Source: an uncultured Clostridia bacterium (GTDB lineage Bacteria > Bacillota > Clostridia > UBA1381). From it: a stretch of DNA of 41,890 nt. The notes beneath the pieces were generated by a model. That model was not told where the DNA came from. It searched no databases and saw nothing but the letters and a program-made list of their open reading frames with translations. This document shows positions 7,163-41,543 of the stretch, one piece after another. A program made the position numbers and the translations under genes. Location: positions 1 to 41,890 of the forward strand of contig CANQIP010000012.1 in NCBI GenBank assembly GCA_947623955.1, given 5' to 3'. Every line of letters starts with the position of its first letter. Positions within the stretch are counted from its first letter, which is position 1.

Positions 7163-7210
7163 TCGCGATGTTTCCTCCTTGTAGGTTTGTTGGATTGTTA
7201 TTTGGGGTAT

Positions 7211-7316
7211 AAAACCCCTCCGACGCCTTCGGCGCCACCTCCCCTAGTAGGGGAGGCATACAGTGAGGCTCCCCTATTAGGGGAGCTGTCACGCGGAGCG
7301 TGACTGAGGGGTTTTT
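7211..7316 (+). repeat. Hairpin repeat family A, copy 3 (forward)
   Basis: Opens AAAACCCCTCCGACGCC and ends GACTGAGGGGTTTTTA with the same four hairpins as copy 1; the centre between the two CTCCCC stems is shorter. It lies between glmU and pth, both transcribed leftward, so it would be part of a read-through transcript. Confidence 0.92.
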
Positions 7317-7344
7317 ACGGGCGACCGCAAGGGTCGCCCCTACG
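7317..7344 (+). repeat. Short hairpin repeat family C, copy 2
   Basis: GGGCGACC, loop GCAAG, GGTCGCCC followed by CTACG. It abuts family A copy 3 in the same relative arrangement as at 279-305. Confidence 0.85.
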
Positions 7345-7370
7345 ATACCGTTGACATCGGGTTGTCGTGG

Positions 7371-7398
7371 ACGGGCGACCGCGAGGATCGCCCCTACG
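7371..7398 (+). repeat. Short hairpin repeat family C, copy 3
   Basis: A second GGGCGACC...GATCGCCCCTACG copy, 26 bp after copy 2, with two compensating-looking substitutions around the loop (GCAAGG becomes GCGAGG). Confidence 0.85.
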
Positions 7399-7401
7399 TA
7401 T

Positions 7402-7522
7402 GACCCCCTCTATGAGGGGGTCTAAACTTGCTTGCAAGTTTAGGGGGGTGGTGTGGAATGTTGTCAATAACACCCCCCAAAACTCACACGTGAGTTTTGA
7501 CCCCCCCCTCGGAGAGGGGGTC
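7402..7522. repeat. Palindromic repeat family D
   Basis: A 121-bp structure whose halves are imperfect inverted copies: GACCCCCTC/GAGGGGGTC, a TAAACTTG/CAAGTTTA hairpin and GGGGGGTG on the left; CACCCCCC, an AAAACTCAC/GTGAGTTTT hairpin and a final CCCCTC/GAGGGG stem on the right. No ORF. It completes the gene-free stretch 7163-7530. Confidence 0.8.
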
Positions 7523-7530
7523 TTTCACTC

Positions 7531-12018: not shown

Positions 12019-12083
12019 TGCGGGCAACCGCAAGGGTCGCCCCTACGGGGTGGGGTACGGGCGGCCGATGACCGCCCCTACGG
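12019..12083 (+). repeat. Two family C hairpins in tandem (copies 4 and 5)
   Basis: GCGGGCAACCGCAAGGGTCG at 12019 and GGGCGGCCGATGACCGCCCC near 12060, each followed by CTACGG. They form the downstream part of the repeat cluster between infB and rbfA. Confidence 0.8.
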
Positions 12084-12084
12084 T

Positions 12085-12203
12085 GAGGCCCCCTTGTCAA
12101 AGGGGGCTGTCACGCGCAGCGTGACTGGGGGATTCTTTTCCAGATTTTATAAAGAATCCCTCCACCGCCTTCGGCGGTCCCCCTCCCTTTAACAAGGGAG
12201 GCT
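12085..12203. repeat. Hairpin repeat family B (permuted relative of family A)
   Basis: Two half-elements lie back to back. The left half has a CCCCCTTGTCAAAGGGGG stem, a GTCACGCGCAGCGTGAC stem, and ends GGGGGATTCTTT. The right half starts AAAGAATCCCTCC and has a CGCCTTCGGCG hairpin and a CCTCCCTTTAACAAGGGAGG stem. The parts match family A in kind but in permuted order, as if the end of one element met the start of another. It lies inside the infB-rbfA interval of an essential operon. Confidence 0.82.
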
Positions 12204-12211
12204 AACGTCGA

Positions 12212-14692
<2,481 letters not shown>

Positions 14693-21657: not shown

Positions 21658-22479
21658 ATGAAACGTATAGTCTTTGAAAAGTGGCAGATAAAAAAGCTGC
21701 TCGCATGGTTCCTCGGTTTCGTAATCATAGGCGGCGGTTACATATGCTACACCACGTACACGCTCTACCGGGACAAGTCCGCTGAGGAGTATTACTGGCA
21801 GAAGAATATGCTCAACCGTGAGGCGGAGGCTATAGGCGCGCAGCAGGTCGGCGCGGAGACGACGCGCGTGTTCACGGGTACGTATCTCGAAAGCGTCAAG
21901 GAGGTCGCTCTGCGCAGCAGCTATTACCGCGTCGTGTGCAGTATATGGTTCCGCTGGAAGGGCGACGACGACCTCGACATGGTGAACAACTTCCATATCT
22001 ACAACGGCACGACGAACAAGCTTGAGGTCATGGAGGACACGATGATCAACGGCTGGCACTACCAGCGCTGCCGCCTCGACGTGACGGTGAACAACGATTT
22101 CTGGACGGTGCGTTTCCCGCTTGAGTCGCATCAGATGCGTTTCTACATAGAGCCCAACATGCCCGCGAAAAGAGTCATTCTCGAAAAGGACGGCGACAAC
22201 AGCTCGTACAATCCGAATATAGGCATACCGGGCTTTTACATTGTGCGTCACGACACGGCTGAATTTACGCAGGTATACGACACGTCCTACGGCAAAAACA
22301 GCGACGACGAGATCACATCGGAGTTTATGACGCAGTTTGAGATCAACAGGAGTGGTCTGGGGCTGTACGCGAAGTGCTTTATCGCGCTGTTCGGACGCGT
22401 AATGAGCTTTACGCTGATGTTTATAGTTATACTCGGTCATATACTCATGCCGCTGTCGGCGTATATGGCGACGGTATGA
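21658..22479 (+). CDS. Membrane protein resembling a pentameric ligand-gated ion channel extracellular domain
   Basis: 273 residues: a basic N-terminus, a membrane helix (about 13-33), an extracytoplasmic domain (about 40-230), and a second membrane helix (about 236-262) near the end. By eye the middle follows the beta-strand pattern of bacterial pLGICs such as GLIC: TGTYLESV (73-80) then VCSIWFRWKGDDD (93-105) match the TGIYLIES...LSLSWKDRR region; DVTVNNDFWTVRFPLESHQM (141-160) matches the DFRRYPFDSQTL region; and FEINRSGLGLYAKCF (227-241) matches the start of M1. Helices M2-M4 of a real channel are missing, and there is no Cys-loop pair. Ribosome binding site is poor (AAGGGGGAAA is over 20 nt upstream). 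First of a rightward cluster. I know no named family for it; channel homology is an inference. Confidence 0.6.
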   Translation: MKRIVFEKWQIKKLLAWFLGFVIIGGGYICYTTYTLYRDKSAEEYYWQKNMLNREAEAIGAQQVGAETTRVFTGTYLESVKEVALRSSYYRVVCSIWFRWKGDDDLDMVNNFHIYNGTTNKLEVMEDTMINGWHYQRCRLDVTVNNDFWTVRFPLESHQMRFYIEPNMPAKRVILEKDGDNSSYNPNIGIPGFYIVRHDTAEFTQVYDTSYGKNSDDEITSEFMTQFEINRSGLGLYAKCFIALFGRVMSFTLMFIVILGHILMPLSAYMATV

Positions 22480-22502
22480 TTTCGGAAAGGAGAGTTGGGG
22501 TT

Positions 22503-23231
22503 ATGAAAGATTACGCTATCGGTCTTGTCGCGGTAAAATGGAGCCGCGGAAGAATAGTTTTGCTCGTTATTCTCGCCGTGCTGAGCCTGCTTATACAGAA
22601 ATACATATCGGCAAATCCGTATCTGCCGCTGTGGCTCGACGGTTTCGGGCCGTTTTTCGCGGCGGCTGTGGACGGGCCCGTTTTCGGCGCGGCAGTGTCG
22701 GCGTTATGGCTTATATTAAGCATTGCCGTGAACGGTTTTTCCGTTCACTCGTTTTTGCTGATACTGATGTTCGCGATAATGGCGGCGATATTCGGTGCGA
22801 TGTTCCGTCTCGGATTTTTCGGGAACAAGAAAACCGTTCCGTTCGCGTTCGCGGTGCTGATTTTGGTTGATACCCTCACCGCCGTCGCGACAAGTATGGC
22901 TCTTTACGGAGAATCGACGTTTACAAATATTATAACCACATTCATTCACGGTCTTATGACCTCGCTCGGCGTACACGGACTTATAGCCGGAACGGTGTCG
23001 TATATGGCCGCGAGCATTGTGGATAAGGCGATCATTATCGCGGTTATATTCCTTATATTTAAGGTCATGCCGCAGAAAATTGCCGATTTCTTTGCCATAA
23101 ACAAGAAAATTCCCGTCGCCGTGTTCGCGAAAACGAAGGAGGACGGGGAATTTCAGGATGAAAAAGACAAACTCATGCATAACGCTCAGGAAAAAATCGA
23201 GCAGAAGAAAAGCGCGGAGGCGGTAAAATGA
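22503..23231 (+). CDS. ECF-transporter S-component-like membrane protein
   Basis: A 242-residue integral membrane protein with five or six hydrophobic segments (about 14-32, 45-75, 80-105, 110-133, 150-205). The stretch GPFFAAAVDGPVFGAAVSAL (about 48-67) and the C-terminal SIVDKAIIIAVIFLIFKVMP have the pattern of energy-coupling-factor S components, which bind vitamins or metals and pair with an EcfT/EcfA module. No EcfA or EcfT gene is in the window. A charged Lys/Glu tail follows. AAAGGAGA lies about 10 nt before the ATG; the gene starts 23 bp after the channel-like gene and overlaps the next by 4 nt, so the three are likely one operon. Substrate unknown. Confidence 0.65.
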   Translation: MKDYAIGLVAVKWSRGRIVLLVILAVLSLLIQKYISANPYLPLWLDGFGPFFAAAVDGPVFGAAVSALWLILSIAVNGFSVHSFLLILMFAIMAAIFGAMFRLGFFGNKKTVPFAFAVLILVDTLTAVATSMALYGESTFTNIITTFIHGLMTSLGVHGLIAGTVSYMAASIVDKAIIIAVIFLIFKVMPQKIADFFAINKKIPVAVFAKTKEDGEFQDEKDKLMHNAQEKIEQKKSAEAVK

Positions 23232-23923
23232 GAGAGCAGATAAGTAATGTCATTTACGGTCAGAAAACAAAGGGTCGCTCGACCGTGTACTACGACTGGT
23301 TCATAATGGTTGTCGCGATCGCGAGCGTTGTGCCGATGATGTTCCGCGGCGCGCTTTCGCAGTGGATGCAAATACTTGAATCAATCACGGTTTACATACT
23401 GTTTTTCGACTATATTTTGAGGTGGATAACGCACGATTTCAGAATGAAAAACCACTCGATTTGGGCGTTCTTCATTTATCCGTTCACGCCGCTGGCGATT
23501 ATGGATATTGCGGGTATACTCCCGACACTGGGACTTCTGCCGCCTACCTTTATGATTTTGAGGGTGCTGCGCCTTGTAAAGCTTGCGCAGTACTCGCAAA
23601 GCTGCAGACGCGTCATGAACGTGTTCCGCAGTCAGGCAAAAACGCTTTGCTCGGTGCTTATAATCGCGATGCCTGCAGGTATCGTTACGGCGGGCTTTAT
23701 GTTTGTTCGGACTTATGCTGCGCAAGGACGGAAAGGTCTCATGGAAAAAGCTGCCGCTCGCAGCCGTTATTTACGTGGTCGCGGCGTCGTTTTTGTCGGC
23801 GGCTATCGCGATGTGGCGCACTGGCGCGCCAAACAGCGGTTGGGAACTTGTATTTTTCAGCATGGCGCGGTCGCGCGGCGTTCCCGTGTTCTTTTCGGCG
23901 GCGTTCGGCGCGGGTGTGCTTAA
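23228..23923 (+). CDS. Voltage-sensor-like (S1-S4) membrane protein, probably frameshifted at its 3' end
   Basis: The 231-residue reading begins with an ATGA overlap with the S-component-like gene. Residues 1-130 look like a voltage-sensor domain: S1 (about 21-40), S2 with FFDYILRW, S3 with PLAIMDIAGILP, and S4 with MILRVLRLVKLAQ, arginine or lysine every third position. No pore signature (such as TVGYGD) follows. A hydrophobic segment ending VTAGFM runs up to about 23701; after that this frame becomes Arg/Gly-rich and implausible, while a neighbouring frame (from 23703) continues as membrane protein. Removing one T near 23702-23704 joins them into one 274-residue protein. The last ~75 residues of this reading are thus probably not real. 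Confidence 0.6.
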   Translation: MREQISNVIYGQKTKGRSTVYYDWFIMVVAIASVVPMMFRGALSQWMQILESITVYILFFDYILRWITHDFRMKNHSIWAFFIYPFTPLAIMDIAGILPTLGLLPPTFMILRVLRLVKLAQYSQSCRRVMNVFRSQAKTLCSVLIIAMPAGIVTAGFMFVRTYAAQGRKGLMEKAAARSRYLRGRGVVFVGGYRDVAHWRAKQRLGTCIFQHGAVARRSRVLFGGVRRGCA

Positions 23924-24053
23924 AGTCATAGACACCGCCGTGTTGTGCGTACTGCTGCCGATTTTGTACAAGCTTACGCCGAAAAGGTTTAAAAACGAGT
24001 ATTACAAGGAAAAACTCACATGGAAATCTCCGTTTAAGGAGAACTCAAATTAA
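23703..24053 (+). CDS. S-component-like C-terminal membrane segment (likely continuation of the preceding gene)
   Basis: A 116-residue frame without a convincing start or ribosome binding site. It reads FGLMLRKDGKVSWKKLPLAA then several hydrophobic segments and VIDTAVLCVLLPILYKLTP, which closely parallels VDKAIIIAVIFLIFKVMP at the end of the S-component-like gene upstream. It is either the C-terminal half of the voltage-sensor-like gene after a one-base frameshift, or the remnant of a second S-component gene joined by deletion. It ends just before the 24057 terminator. Confidence 0.55.
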   Translation: MFGLMLRKDGKVSWKKLPLAAVIYVVAASFLSAAIAMWRTGAPNSGWELVFFSMARSRGVPVFFSAAFGAGVLKVIDTAVLCVLLPILYKLTPKRFKNEYYKEKLTWKSPFKENSN

Positions 24054-30375: not shown

Positions 30376-30377
30376 TG

Positions 30378-30537
30378 CACATAAACCCCTCAGTCAGCTA
30401 CGCTGACAGCTCCCCTAATAGGGGAGCCTCACCGTATGCCTCCCCTATTAGGCGAACGATGCTTTAGCATCGTAGGCATGTTGCGCAGCAACAAATGCCG
30501 TAGCAAAGAGGCGGCGCCGTAGGCGTCGGAGGGGTTT
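30378..30537 (-). repeat. Hairpin repeat family A, copy 4 (reverse, with internal insertion)
   Basis: Starts AAACCCCTCAGTCAGC and ends GTCGGAGGGGTTTT like copy 2, but the second CTCCCCTATTAGG stem is interrupted by about 55 bp holding three small hairpins (CGATGCTTTAGCATCG, TTGCGCAGCAA, and a TTTGCTACGGCA-like pairing). The rest of 30376-30654 holds only this repeat and the next promoter. Confidence 0.88.
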
Positions 30538-32075: not shown

Positions 32076-32632
32076 AGGAAAATATAAAATACGCCATAGA
32101 GGGTATACTGTTCGCGGCGGGCGAACCCGTCAAAGCCGCGAAACTGGCGGCAGTTCTCGATTGCGGCGTTGAGGATGTGGAAAACGCCGTCGGCGAGCTT
32201 AAAGACGAATACGAGCGCGACAAGCGCGGATTTAACATAATAGATATTTCGGAGGGGTACCAGATTTGTTCGCGCCCCGAATATTATACGTATATACAGG
32301 AAATATTAGGAGAGCAGAGACTTCAGCCGCTGTCGAACGCGGCGATGGAGGCTCTCGCGATCATCGCGTACAAGCAGCCCGTGACGCGGGGGCAGATCGA
32401 GGAAATACGCGGCGTGAACAGTGACGGCTGCGTAAACAGGCTGTACGAGCGCGGTCTTATCGAGGAAAAGGGCAGGCTTGACGCGCCCGGCAGACCGATA
32501 CTGTATGTGACAACGGACACGTTTTTGCGCTGTTTCGGGCTTAAAGACCCGCACGATTTGCCGCCGCTTGATTTGAGCAGTCTCGACACCGAGAGCGCAC
32601 AGGGCGTACAGCTGGAGATTGAGGGGAAGTGA
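32072..32632 (+). CDS. scpB: Segregation and condensation protein B
   Basis: The KITE-family subunit of condensin; binds ScpA as a dimer. 186 residues with two winged-helix domains: IEGILFAAGEPVKAAKLA (about 9-26) in the first and LSNAAMEALAIIAYKQPVTR (about 87-106), then GQIEEIRGVNSDG, in the second. Normal length. Overlaps scpA (ATGA) and is followed at 4 bp by the DUF2953 gene. Confidence 0.96.
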   Translation: MKENIKYAIEGILFAAGEPVKAAKLAAVLDCGVEDVENAVGELKDEYERDKRGFNIIDISEGYQICSRPEYYTYIQEILGEQRLQPLSNAAMEALAIIAYKQPVTRGQIEEIRGVNSDGCVNRLYERGLIEEKGRLDAPGRPILYVTTDTFLRCFGLKDPHDLPPLDLSSLDTESAQGVQLEIEGK

Positions 32633-37667: not shown

Positions 37668-40600
37668 TTACTGTAACTCAATATGTTCATCTTGCGCTTG
37701 GTTAAAGCTTGGGTCTCCGCCTGCAATTTTTTCTAAGCAGTCGAAGAGGTACTCTGCAATCCACTTAGCCAACGGCTCTTTATAGTGGTTATGGTCGCCG
37801 TACAAGCTCTGAACATATTCGAGCGGTGTCTGTCCATCACCAACCGGAGCAACGCCGGTCTGTAATGTATTGAAGTAATCCTCACCCGCAAAGCCAAGCT
37901 CAATGATGTTGAGGTTATTGTCCTGAGCAATCTTTCTGAGCAAGCCGTTACGCGCGCCCGTTCCACGGTTATTTGTGAACTTCTGGGTTGACGCATCATA
38001 GTCGCCGTTCCATGAAGGAGCACTTCCCGCAACAGGTCCGTCCGGAGTAGCCGTTACGATTACCGGAATAGCTCCTCTCTGGATAATACCCTGTACGCAA
38101 TAGTCGTCCATTACTCCAAGGAATTCCTCATTGCTTTCTCTACCGTTTATACCCATGTTAACCGTTACATAGTCGCCCGGGTTAACCGCAAGGAGAACAG
38201 CCTCAATTCTTCCTTCATTGTAGAAGTCTATGGAGTTACGTCCCGCCATACCATGGTTATGGAATGAACTGAACGCTGTCGGGAGTGTTACTCCGCTTTG
38301 AGATTCGGCAACATTACCCCACGAAATATTTCCGTTAGCATTGTTCTTTGTTGTCGAGTCGCCTATAGCGTATATTGCCGGCTTATCAAGCTCCGTCTTA
38401 GCCGTATCCTGCGCGATTGACAGCGACTTCAAGTCTGAATTAGCCGCAAATGTCAAGTCGAGTATACCGTCAACAACCGCAACCTTGTATGACGCGCCGG
38501 ACTTGGATACACCGAGTACCGTCGAAATACCTTCGGGTTTCTCCGAATATGTCGCAGTGCTGGTGGTGTTGGCAGTTACAGTGTAGTTACCCGCCGGAAC
38601 CTTAACCATAAACTTATAAGCAGCTGAACCGGTCACCTTATCCGAACCGTCTGTAAGCATGCTCGCATTTTCAAAGCCGTAACCCGCCTTATCGCTGTAC
38701 GAATCCGCCTTTGTTACCTGCGTATATCCTTCCTCGGGCTCGCCCGTACCGAACGAGAAACTCAAACCGTGGATATTAACCGGAATAGCTCTCGACAGCG
38801 GCGTTGCGTCATTGTTTATAGCATTGATGTAAATTCTTGCCGGTTTAGCCGCGCTCGTTACCGTCAGCGTTGCCTTGCCGTCCGCTACATTGAAGGTTAC
38901 GCCCGGAAGAGCTGTAGCCAATGTATCTGTTATATCCGTATAATTCTTATCAAGCACTTTGTATGTTATGGTTGACGCCGTTTCTGTAGGCTCGCCGTTC
39001 TCGCCCATAGCGAATTGAACATCATCGCCGTTCTTGTCAACCGTCTTAGCCGTAAACTCAGCCGTTGCGTTCTCGCCGCCTGTAAACGGAATTGTAAGAC
39101 TTGTTACAGGTGCTGTTACAGCAATCGAATTGCCGGAGGTTGTAAGATTGATGTCCTTCGTCGCATTTGCCGAACCGCTGCGTGCCGTAACGGTTACGGG
39201 ACCCGCCGGAGCGCCTTCTTTAACAACAAGCTTAGCTTTATGCGAATCTGTGCTGTCGGGAACGATCTGAATAGTATCGTCGTCCGAGTTGATCTCCCAT
39301 GTAACGGCTCCCGTTATGGTATAACCTTCGGCAGTCTTGGGCATAGCTACCAGCTCAAGCTCCGCGTCGGGAAGCGGCGTCGCGGTATATGTTACGGGCG
39401 CATTGTCTATAGGCTCCATTGTGTCAAGTCCGTCCCACATAAGCAGCTTTGCACCGCTTTCAAGCACATAATTGTTGAGCACCGCCTTGCTGTCGGTAAA
39501 CGTCAAATCACTTGTCTTTACGTTTGTAAGCTTTGTTCCGTCATAAGATGCAGCTATAAGCGTTGCTTTTGTAACATCGGCTTTTGTAACGGTCAATTTT
39601 TTAGCCACTCTGTCGTATGTATATACTCCGCTTTCGCCTATGGGGTTATCTCCCGCATCAGATTCATCGGGCGCGGGAACCTGCAGCTGCTCCGCACCGC
39701 CCTGGGTGTTGATCGTAATATTACCGATTGACGGATAATAAATCCTAAAGCTTGCAAGATCAACAGGGAAACCTCCTGTTACGCAGAAATATTTCTGATC
39801 CAATGTGTAACACGGGGTTGCGGGGTCCTCATCTGTTTTGCCGTCTTTTTGTTTGGCGTTGGCAGTGTTAATTGAAATGTCTTCAGCCTCTCCGAGCAGC
39901 ATACCGTCATTTTTGTATACCTTTGCCCAGCATACCTTAGCCGTTTCGTCAGCCGAAACAACAATCCTGTACCATTCGTCTTTTGACATTCCGCTATCTA
40001 CTACGGATTGTCCGTTAAGCGTCAATCCAGTACCGGTAAAGGACACAGTCCAGCTCGGATTGGCATTACCGTTATTTGCCGTACTCGCATAATGTCCGAA
40101 ACCGCCCGTTCCGCCGGTAAATCTGATTTTAACGTCGGTAATATACTGATTTGCCTGATTGCTCAACAAGTATGAGCCGACCGTTGAACCGGATGTTCCG
40201 CCGCCTGTGGAGAACTGTAAATACTTCGTTCCGTCCGTATCATCCTTTTTCAATTCGAGCGTTCTTGCGCCGTTTGAACCCGCGATTGTCCAGTTGTTAA
40301 GAACGACATCGCGATATGTTTCATTTTGTCCGCCTACTTTATATCCGACAAGAGAATTTTTATAAGCGCTCATATCCACGGGATAACCGGGCTGCGGAGC
40401 GAGATTGTCACCCGCTATAGCCGAGCGCAGCGTGGCAAAAGGCGTTGAAAGAGTTTTTTCCTCACCCTTGTACGTTATTTTAACGTTAACGCTGCCGAAC
40501 CAGTCGGAAACGCCGTTTCTTACATTAAAATACGCAACGTTGTCGGTTGAAGTCGGAGCTTCGCCTTCCGTGCCGCCGAGGTCGCCGTCACCGCTGCCCG

Positions 40601-41543
40601 GCTCTTTTGTAAGCGAAATATATCCGTCTTCGGGATCTTCTCCGTCGCCGCCGGAAAGACCCGTCGTCGTCCATTCGTATTCAATACCGTCTGCGTTTGA
40701 CAAATCTGTGCCGTATATACCGCTTACTTTTACTTCTATTTTTTTATGTACCGCGTTTTCGGCTCCCAACGGCGGATTTACTATTGCAGTGTTAACCTGC
40801 GAAACAAATTCAACCTTCGACATTGTTTCCTCTGCCACTTCGCCGAATGTGTCATCATCTGTTTTTTCTCTCACCGTGAAGTTGTCAAACTTCATTACGC
40901 TGTTATAACGACCGGAAAGGAAATGTATACCTGTTATCTTATTTGTAACATCGCCGTTTATGGGAAGAACAAGTTTGTCTACAAGCTTATCTCCGCTCTC
41001 CGGTGAAATTGTTGCGGATACCAGTCTTTTTGTTGTATCAACGATAATTTCATAGTGATACCATGTAGAATCTGTCTGCGTTACCGTCGCTGTGCTTATA
41101 TCGTTAAATGTCATTACACCGCCTTTGGTCATATCAATTTTAAATAAGTAGTTTCCACTGACAGCAGCGTTTGCGCCAGGCATGCCGCCGGTCAAAATGC
41201 CGAAACTGGAATTATCTGTATTAGAATTTGTAAGCGCCATGTCAAATTCCACAACATAGTATTCATGTCCCGTCAAATCCAAGTCCTCAAAATCCGAGGT
41301 CGCACCTCGGCTGTTGTTACTACCAGTAGTGTACTGAATATAATTGGTTTTATCCGTACCCAATGTAAGTCCATCGACATAATTAGGTGACGGCGTCCAT
41401 ACCGTTTTAGGATCGGTAACGCTTTCGTAATCCTGCGTATATGGCAGCGACGTTACCGCGCTTGCCGGCAACACAAACGCAAACTGCGCCGCCATCGCAA
41501 GCACTGCCGCGCCCGCGATTAGCTTTTTAAATTTTCCTTTCAT
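37668..41543 (-). CDS. Large secreted SGNH esterase (rhamnogalacturonan acetylesterase-like) with ConA-like and Ig-like domains
   Basis: 1291 residues, exported by a signal peptide (1-29). Then a concanavalin-like fold (about 35-230, with YYVVEFDMAL and MKFDNFTVRE), an Ig-like part (about 240-380), a second ConA-like fold (about 400-620), Ig-like modules (about 700-960), and a galactose-binding-like domain (about 965-1055). The C-terminal SGNH hydrolase has Ser1063 in GDSTTK, AGRNS (1100-1104), Asn in NMGIN (1129-1133) and Asp1250/His1253 in GDHNHYK, the layout of CE12 rhamnogalacturonan acetylesterases (pectin deacetylation). No LPXTG, SLH or dockerin is seen, so attachment is unclear. GAGGAG lies 8 nt before the ATG. 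Base composition looks AT-richer than the housekeeping genes. Confidence 0.85.
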   Translation of the reverse strand: MKGKFKKLIAGAAVLAMAAQFAFVLPASAVTSLPYTQDYESVTDPKTVWTPSPNYVDGLTLGTDKTNYIQYTTGSNNSRGATSDFEDLDLTGHEYYVVEFDMALTNSNTDNSSFGILTGGMPGANAAVSGNYLFKIDMTKGGVMTFNDISTATVTQTDSTWYHYEIIVDTTKRLVSATISPESGDKLVDKLVLPINGDVTNKITGIHFLSGRYNSVMKFDNFTVREKTDDDTFGEVAEETMSKVEFVSQVNTAIVNPPLGAENAVHKKIEVKVSGIYGTDLSNADGIEYEWTTTGLSGGDGEDPEDGYISLTKEPGSGDGDLGGTEGEAPTSTDNVAYFNVRNGVSDWFGSVNVKITYKGEEKTLSTPFATLRSAIAGDNLAPQPGYPVDMSAYKNSLVGYKVGGQNETYRDVVLNNWTIAGSNGARTLELKKDDTDGTKYLQFSTGGGTSGSTVGSYLLSNQANQYITDVKIRFTGGTGGFGHYASTANNGNANPSWTVSFTGTGLTLNGQSVVDSGMSKDEWYRIVVSADETAKVCWAKVYKNDGMLLGEAEDISINTANAKQKDGKTDEDPATPCYTLDQKYFCVTGGFPVDLASFRIYYPSIGNITINTQGGAEQLQVPAPDESDAGDNPIGESGVYTYDRVAKKLTVTKADVTKATLIAASYDGTKLTNVKTSDLTFTDSKAVLNNYVLESGAKLLMWDGLDTMEPIDNAPVTYTATPLPDAELELVAMPKTAEGYTITGAVTWEINSDDDTIQIVPDSTDSHKAKLVVKEGAPAGPVTVTARSGSANATKDINLTTSGNSIAVTAPVTSLTIPFTGGENATAEFTAKTVDKNGDDVQFAMGENGEPTETASTITYKVLDKNYTDITDTLATALPGVTFNVADGKATLTVTSAAKPARIYINAINNDATPLSRAIPVNIHGLSFSFGTGEPEEGYTQVTKADSYSDKAGYGFENASMLTDGSDKVTGSAAYKFMVKVPAGNYTVTANTTSTATYSEKPEGISTVLGVSKSGASYKVAVVDGILDLTFAANSDLKSLSIAQDTAKTELDKPAIYAIGDSTTKNNANGNISWGNVAESQSGVTLPTAFSSFHNHGMAGRNSIDFYNEGRIEAVLLAVNPGDYVTVNMGINGRESNEEFLGVMDDYCVQGIIQRGAIPVIVTATPDGPVAGSAPSWNGDYDASTQKFTNNRGTGARNGLLRKIAQDNNLNIIELGFAGEDYFNTLQTGVAPVGDGQTPLEYVQSLYGDHNHYKEPLAKWIAEYLFDCLEKIAGGDPSFNQAQDEHIELQ

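Follow-up and report, generated by a model that had tools for sequence, protein, structure and literature searches.

The 41,890-nucleotide stretch of DNA analysed here (the window: contig CANQIP010000012.1 of assembly GCA_947623955.1, from an uncultured Clostridia bacterium) contains a recently broken copy of a conserved four-gene membrane operon, whose genes are called A, B, C and D in the following. The parts can be named with high confidence: A encodes a subunit of the pentameric ligand-gated ion channel (pLGIC) superfamily, related to the neurotransmitter receptors of animals, with the membrane helices M1-M4, C encodes a voltage-gated K+ channel, and B and D encode membrane proteins that resemble vitamin carriers, of the type of the S components of energy-coupling factor (ECF) transporters. 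As an overall explanation we favour, with a confidence that falls somewhat short of even, a broken copy of an operon that would have a ligand-triggered role in setting the membrane potential when intact.

The broken state becomes apparent in comparison with relatives. In the genomes G008 and G007 the cluster consists of four genes, A (361 aa), B (242), C (252) and D (201-204), and it shares with the window its trpE-, trpG- and glycoside-hydrolase-like neighbours, named by reading of their frames. In both genomes A starts with an N-terminal helix (TM0), followed by an ectodomain and, towards the C-terminus, a membrane region; C possesses the helices S1-S6 plus the sequence TVGYGDI, and D is a second S-component-like gene; the clusters of G018 and G043 are intact as well. 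Each of the nine relatives with an intact A carries the ectodomain on a complete pLGIC-type membrane region of its own, and all 12 C proteins that were aligned join the voltage sensor to a K+ pore of their own. The 'truncated pLGIC' and the 'S1-S4 protein' of the window are deletion scars and not designed parts, their pore-less forms being due to recent deletions. A preliminary description of the window, made from the sequence letters, had proposed that a pore-less ectodomain acts through separate membrane subunits; this proposal is not supported by the comparison, as A and C of the relatives each have a pore of their own, and a sensor that is pore-less by design was rejected because the pore parts are encoded in the intact relatives.

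Three deletions, defined against the intact relative G008, account for the present state of the window copy (Table 1). The first, of 264 bp, removed residues 247-334 of A, i.e. the end of M1, M2, M3 and the stretch up to M4, and joined residues 1-246 in frame to residues 335-361 of the 361-aa form. In G008 the missing stretch is flanked by a 13-bp direct repeat, CGCGCTGTTCGGA, of which one copy is left in the window; among the exact direct repeats found in the intact 3.2-kb operon of this genome, it is the longest. The second, of 195 bp, removed 65 codons of C with the pore loop and the filter, so that residues 1-147 are followed by residues 213-223. The intact G008 operon has 14 repeats of 10 bp, the one at this scar among them, so that its coincidence with the deletion is a weak one. 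The third, of 333 bp, begins at the end of C, reaches codon 85 of D and shows no clear repeat; C therefore reads out of phase into D, its own frame stopping at 23923, and the remnant of D is read in another frame, in which it weakly matches the second half of the ECF_S_CD3073 model NF045596 (E=0.027). One long third gene reaching to 24053, or a programmed frameshift, was considered and rejected: the relatives have separate C and D genes, in which the joined ends lie 333 bp further apart.

The preliminary description, which knew A, B and C as genes 1 to 3 over 21658..24053, gave a 23-bp gap between A and B and a 4-nt overlap between B and C that agree with the frames in Table 1. Its three genes are real, but the remnant of the fourth was missed and gene 3 ends earlier than supposed. 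Likewise, gene 1 does end after about one pore helix in the window, but owing to the 264-bp deletion, as the relatives possess M1-M4; and gene 3 does start with S1-S4, but as a K+ channel that lost pore loop and filter. Since A is deprived of the pore-lining M2 and C of its pore parts, the window copy would be incapable of the mechanism proposed below; at most an anchored ectodomain, a voltage-sensor stub and the protein B would be made from it.

Table 1. Remnants, intact gene and deletion scars of the operon in the window.
Feature	Position	Strand	Remark
Gene A remnant, pLGIC-type subunit, 273 aa	21658..22479	+	TM0, ectodomain and hybrid M1/M4 helix kept
Scar of 264-bp deletion, one 13-bp repeat copy left	22383..22395	+	by comparison with intact G008
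Gene B, ECF S-component-like membrane protein, 242 aa, intact	22503..23231	+	
Gene C remnant, voltage-gated K+ channel	23228..23923	+	S1-S4 and start of S5 kept
Scar of 195-bp deletion in C, single 10-bp repeat copy	23661..23670	+	
Junction of 333-bp deletion, end of C to middle of D, no clear repeat	23701..23702	+	
Gene D remnant, last 116 codons of a 201-aa CD3073-like ECF S-component protein	23703..24053	+	frame differs from C

That the trimmed proteins of the window are functional as they stand, a pore-less, anchored, ligand-binding A and a voltage-sensor-only C forming a new complex, is very unlikely. The deletion in A is in frame and leaves one hybrid helix, and the same 264-bp in-frame loss is present in G011 on a different branch; however, C runs out of frame into D, the first half of D is lost, the sister G008 is intact, and in G011 the start region of A has been lost too.

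Genes matching A are sparsely distributed: they were found in 9 of 101 genomes near the window, in 10 of 95 genomes of the order and in 10 of 391 genomes of a class sample, and a profile search of a phylum sample retrieved 1 of 299, the window's own genome (which is included in all counts of A-bearing genomes given here). The union of the order and class-sample searches comprises 18 A-bearing genomes, excluding L032 (a contig from a further metagenome-assembled genome, which breaks off within A). Half of them have an intact A (G007, G008, G018, G043, G237, G283, G345, G346 and G461); in the other half A is damaged or a stub (G000, G001, G005, G011, G025, G037, G239, G301 and G428). No second copy of A was found in the window's own genome (56 contigs, 87.6% complete). 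C followed by D stands on the same strand after A in 9/9 genomes with an intact A; B is inserted between A and C in four of these and absent from the other five. C and D, whole or damaged, are also present in six of the nine genomes with a damaged A (G000, G005, G011, G037, G239 and G301); they are absent at A in G001, G025 and G428, except for an end of D in G001. The genomes with an intact A belong to five families (f1, f19, f53, f57 and f77 in the numbering of the tool), and with the damaged copies (f54 in addition) the operon extends over six, in surroundings that, by reading of frames, differ between families. The co-occurrence check suggested in the preliminary description thus turned out positive: a cluster of the trio type, A-C-D with or without B, is conserved across several families of the class.

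C and D also occur without A. The D profile matches 66 of the 391 class-sample genomes at E<=0.001, and among the 14 places with E<1e-60 seven adjoin an A gene (whole or damaged) and seven adjoin C without A (G420, G454, G323, G100, G357, G143 and G196). In five of the latter, C adjoins a murA-like gene, and the upstream stretch is 87-98% identical over 163-243 bp to that of the A-bearing G283; among the matches listed, a search for remnants of A upstream of C in the A-less genomes gave chance-like ones (E up to 5). Because C and D stand beside each other without A in these seven genomes, C-D looks like the steadier core, and A like the part that is most often missing.

The frequent loss of A contrasts with its conservation. 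The 243 codons of A compared between the window and G008 show 27 synonymous changes and a single nonsynonymous one, a ratio of nonsynonymous to synonymous rates (dN/dS) of 0.008, compared to 0.042 for B, 0.036 for the start of C and 0.173 for the tail of D; for A of the intact genomes G008 and G007 the ratio is 0.016. A is under extreme purifying selection, and the damage in the window is recent and of a recurrent kind. In G011 the region of A shows the 264-bp loss again and lacks a further 216 and 75 bp, the start of A included; its B, C and D frames are open. By shared-site patterns (68 sites, compared to 8 and 9) the window falls together with G008, and the partner of G011 is G007; the 264-bp loss has thus arisen twice or was moved by recombination, given that the two damaged copies lie on different branches, each with an intact sister. 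Other lesions are of different types: A of G005 contains a stop and has lost 16 bp; in G037, on a short contig that begins within A, parts of A, C and D are missing; G239 has residues 1-96 of A fused in frame to the end of B (L063, 6089-6556), a natural deletion chimera; and in G301 the first 107 residues of A were not found. G001 retains short pieces of A and the end of D only, and the trp and hydrolase-like neighbours are absent from the stretch fetched; G025 and G428 have short pieces of A with weak scores (8.0e-5 and 6.5e-7). G346, in which A is intact, has a frame break in C near codons 57-60. A rule that all deletion lengths are multiples of three was dismissed, as G005 and G037 lost 16, 10, 5 and 278 bp.

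Alternatively, the deletions might be artefacts of metagenome assembly or of the library, the operon of the organism itself being intact. All six named contigs that encode A are metagenome-assembled, the window's genome probably is so as well, the deletions were judged by comparison, and A is constrained as if it were in use. This alternative is nevertheless improbable. The window is collinear with G008 from ~889 to 36701, with 94-96% identity over ~33 kb outside the cluster, and this flank has three gaps of at least 9 bp inside aligned blocks, all of which fall between listed frames, as do the breaks between the aligned blocks except for one of 243 bp at 32625; three deletions within 2.4 kb therefore stand against none such inside genes of the flank, apart from one gene tail. 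A k-mer assembler would probably not be misled by repeats as short as 13 and 10 bp, unless there are reads across the junctions, and other genomes show different lesions.

The assignment of A to the pLGIC superfamily follows from a homology chain of two steps. A of the window alone has no credible Pfam or NCBIfam match. In a tblastn search of plasmids, A finds eight Azospirillum records (best E=2e-16, 27.4% identity), and the frame of one of these in turn passes PF02931 (2.2e-07, 31 bits against a cut-off of 26) and finds solved pLGICs in the PDB (best 5.6e-10). A profile of ten A proteins compared with the PDB has GLIC-type and GABA-rho chains as the top five of its seven matches (best E=0.0023). 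By this chain A is a member of the superfamily, in agreement with the likeness of gene 1 to pLGICs that had been seen before. The hydropathy of intact A reveals TM0, M1, M3 and M4; M2 is under the threshold and was placed by eye from the alignment. M2 and the M2-M3 turn form a strongly conserved block, in which H261, V263, D264, L266, I269, P270 and A271 to P288 are nearly invariant, and the N-terminal helix looks uncleaved. The inner end of M2 holds a conserved acidic residue, which suggests a preference for cations, presumably as in GLIC. A search with Neur_chan_LBD over the 299 phylum genomes had 0 matches and is uninformative, since the control was also silent.

An origin of A from a plasmid or phage gene was rejected, because A has no counterpart in any phage record and, on plasmids, matches the eight Azospirillum records at <=27.4% identity; there was no pattern match in viral contigs. 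The Azospirillum plasmids carry pLGIC-type genes (L084, 3695-4879; L085, 3785-4873), and in Azospirillum sp. B510 such a gene is followed by genes annotated as CheW, a methyl-accepting chemotaxis protein (MCP) domain protein and a mechanosensitive channel, which fits a role in chemoreception.

Compared with the prokaryotic pLGICs (GLIC, ELIC, sTeLIC of PDB entry 6fl9, DeCLIC of 6v4a, and the homologues on Azospirillum plasmids), A is similar, by eye, in its ectodomain with an FP-x-(D/E)-(S/T) pro-loop, its four C-terminal helices and the LP turn that follows M2. It differs in the added N-terminal membrane helix, the weak direct family score and the operon shared with a K+ channel and S-component-like proteins, and the window copy is without a pore.

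C was recognised directly. Intact C matches Ion_trans at 1.7e-23 and PDB chains of Kv channels from 5.8e-25, and TVGYGD as well as R112, R115 and K118 are invariant in 12/12 aligned proteins; with S4 charges and filter, C of the relatives has both a voltage sensor and a pore domain, and is predicted to be a six-helix voltage-gated K+ channel of Kv type. Even the window frame alone matches Ion_trans (9.8e-10), which bears out the voltage-sensor start proposed for gene 3. With channels of the Kv2.1, KCNQ and KvAP type C shares six helices, an S4 with a basic residue at every third position and TVGYGD; unlike them it is encoded in an operon together with an S-component-like protein and often a pLGIC subunit, and its window copy is without the filter.

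D and B are probably S-component-type membrane proteins, B with the weaker scores. NF045596 is matched by 12/12 D proteins (E up to 10 allowed, best 6.7e-21), PF07155 by 3/12 (best 4.4e-7) and PF12822 by 7/12 (best 1.4e-5), and the PDB gives one weak match, to a riboflavin uptake protein (E=0.17). B matches PF12822 at 0.0033 and 0.0067, both below the cut-off (the latter for ECF_trnsprt with window B alone), and is related to D (hhalign probability 95), which is consistent with the S-component likeness noted for gene 2; a B profile found a single, unrelated entry in the PDB (0.99). On the CD3073 model the D piece and B of the window score 14.1 and 16.7 bits, far from the cut-off of 180. From the CD3073 family and from 5TMR histidine kinases D differs in its score below the equivalog cut-off, in the absence of a fused signalling domain, and in that no ECF A/T gene was noticed in the cluster. 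Aside from the operon, D-like S-component stretches occur in open frames of ~700 residues or longer in G343, G411, G325, G224 and others, perhaps receptor fusions of this fold.

For the intact operon a ligand-triggered membrane-potential module is a possible mechanism, put forward tentatively. An extracellular small ligand, perhaps first captured by D/B, would be bound by the ectodomain of A and would open the A pentamer; cations would enter and depolarise the membrane. C would sense the depolarisation through S4, and K+ would leave, by which the membrane potential would be restored and shaped. D and B may serve to bind the ligand, to concentrate it or to deliver it, or they may tune the channels. 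Since C-D can exist without A, A may be an input added to a core of K+ channel and S component. A bolder version regards the intact operon as a minimal excitable-membrane unit with a receptor-type cation input, a Kv output and an S-component subunit that captures ligand or modulates, the three being produced jointly, and A being a contingency gene lost partly through a hot spot at the 13-bp repeat that removes the pore in frame; this version is rather doubtful.

Several observations weigh against the proposed module. A narrower profile of five closer A proteins reached GLIC only at E=0.27, and direct naming of A by Pfam fails: none of the ten A proteins exceeds a cut-off, Neur_chan_LBD appears in one of them (0.061), and unrelated families score better once each (HigB_toxin 0.0035, Lig_chan 0.015), matches which we take for chance. 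The cation selectivity depends on a single residue, D falls well short of the equivalog cut-off of CD3073 (its first member reaches 53.4 bits), and C-D pairs without A imply that A is not a constant partner. Finally, EcfT-type proteins are encoded outside the cluster in 14/14 genomes tested, so that D and B could be plain importers, which is the main rival point. It leads to a different reading, in which the genes serve ion and osmotic housekeeping and are merely expressed together: C as a K+ channel, A as a non-specific or proton-gated cation leak, and D/B as micronutrient S components on a shared ECF module. The A-less pairs and the place of D within S-component families speak for it as well. 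On the other hand, the order A-(B)-C-D is kept tightly in six families (counting damaged copies) whose surroundings differ, which speaks for a common task, and no ECF A/T gene was noticed in the cluster itself; we consider joint housekeeping somewhat unlikely. An anti-phage or toxin-like module with a costly channel that is often lost would fit the patchiness and frequent loss of A. It is very unlikely: the only PADLOC matches are two weak ones to C (E 0.025 and 0.027), with none to A, B or D, and A is in no phage record; the neighbours were viewed by eye only, with no defence-family search made.

As to the role in ligand handling that the membrane-potential module assigns to D and B, the S-component fold is reported from transporters and receptors alike (PMC11109136), and other bacterial pLGICs have ligand-binding operon partners: Tasneem et al. 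describe predicted operons with PBP-II and Cache proteins and, once, a Na+/H+ symporter (PMC549065). A K+ channel or S-component partner is not mentioned in the parts of that paper drawn on here. A paper of 2016 states that pLGICs of unicellular organisms have no known biological role (PMC4795631), and in a word search 'Clostridi', 'Firmicutes' and 'operon' were absent from its main text. Among the matches listed, no description of such an operon was found in the open-licence literature of PubMed Central; to this extent the earlier remark that such a complex is not known as a described system holds, but not its picture of a sensor with separate membrane subunits.

Some observations concern the surroundings of the operon. 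At window 32625, 243 bp of G008 (274 in G011) between an scpB-like gene and the next gene are absent, and the last codons of the scpB-like gene are altered. Beyond 36.7 kb the window has diverged from G008 (<=83% over most of the length); a large, repetitive, secreted-looking protein at 37668-41543, with 83% and 69% identity in two G008 blocks and well conserved flanks, is perhaps a fast-evolving surface protein. Against G011 the window has two 9-bp gaps inside an IF2-like gene, at 14390 and 14446; gaps of G011 against G008 were listed without mapping to genes. Dispersed intergenic repeats of ~80-130 bp occur in the window at 7197-7529, 12083-12212 and 30377-30455 and also in L066-L079; they are ~87-94% alike at several places on the G008 contig and perhaps form a family of MITE- or REP-like elements.

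Bacterial pLGICs serve as structural models for nerve receptors, and a conserved operon offers a concrete, testable role for one of them, membrane-potential signalling or ligand uptake, with intact forms available in two one-contig genomes, G461 and G237. The repeated recent loss of the receptor gene, despite its extreme constraint, poses a puzzle about the cost of such a gene, and the intact copies in related bacteria could help to show what these receptors do in bacteria.

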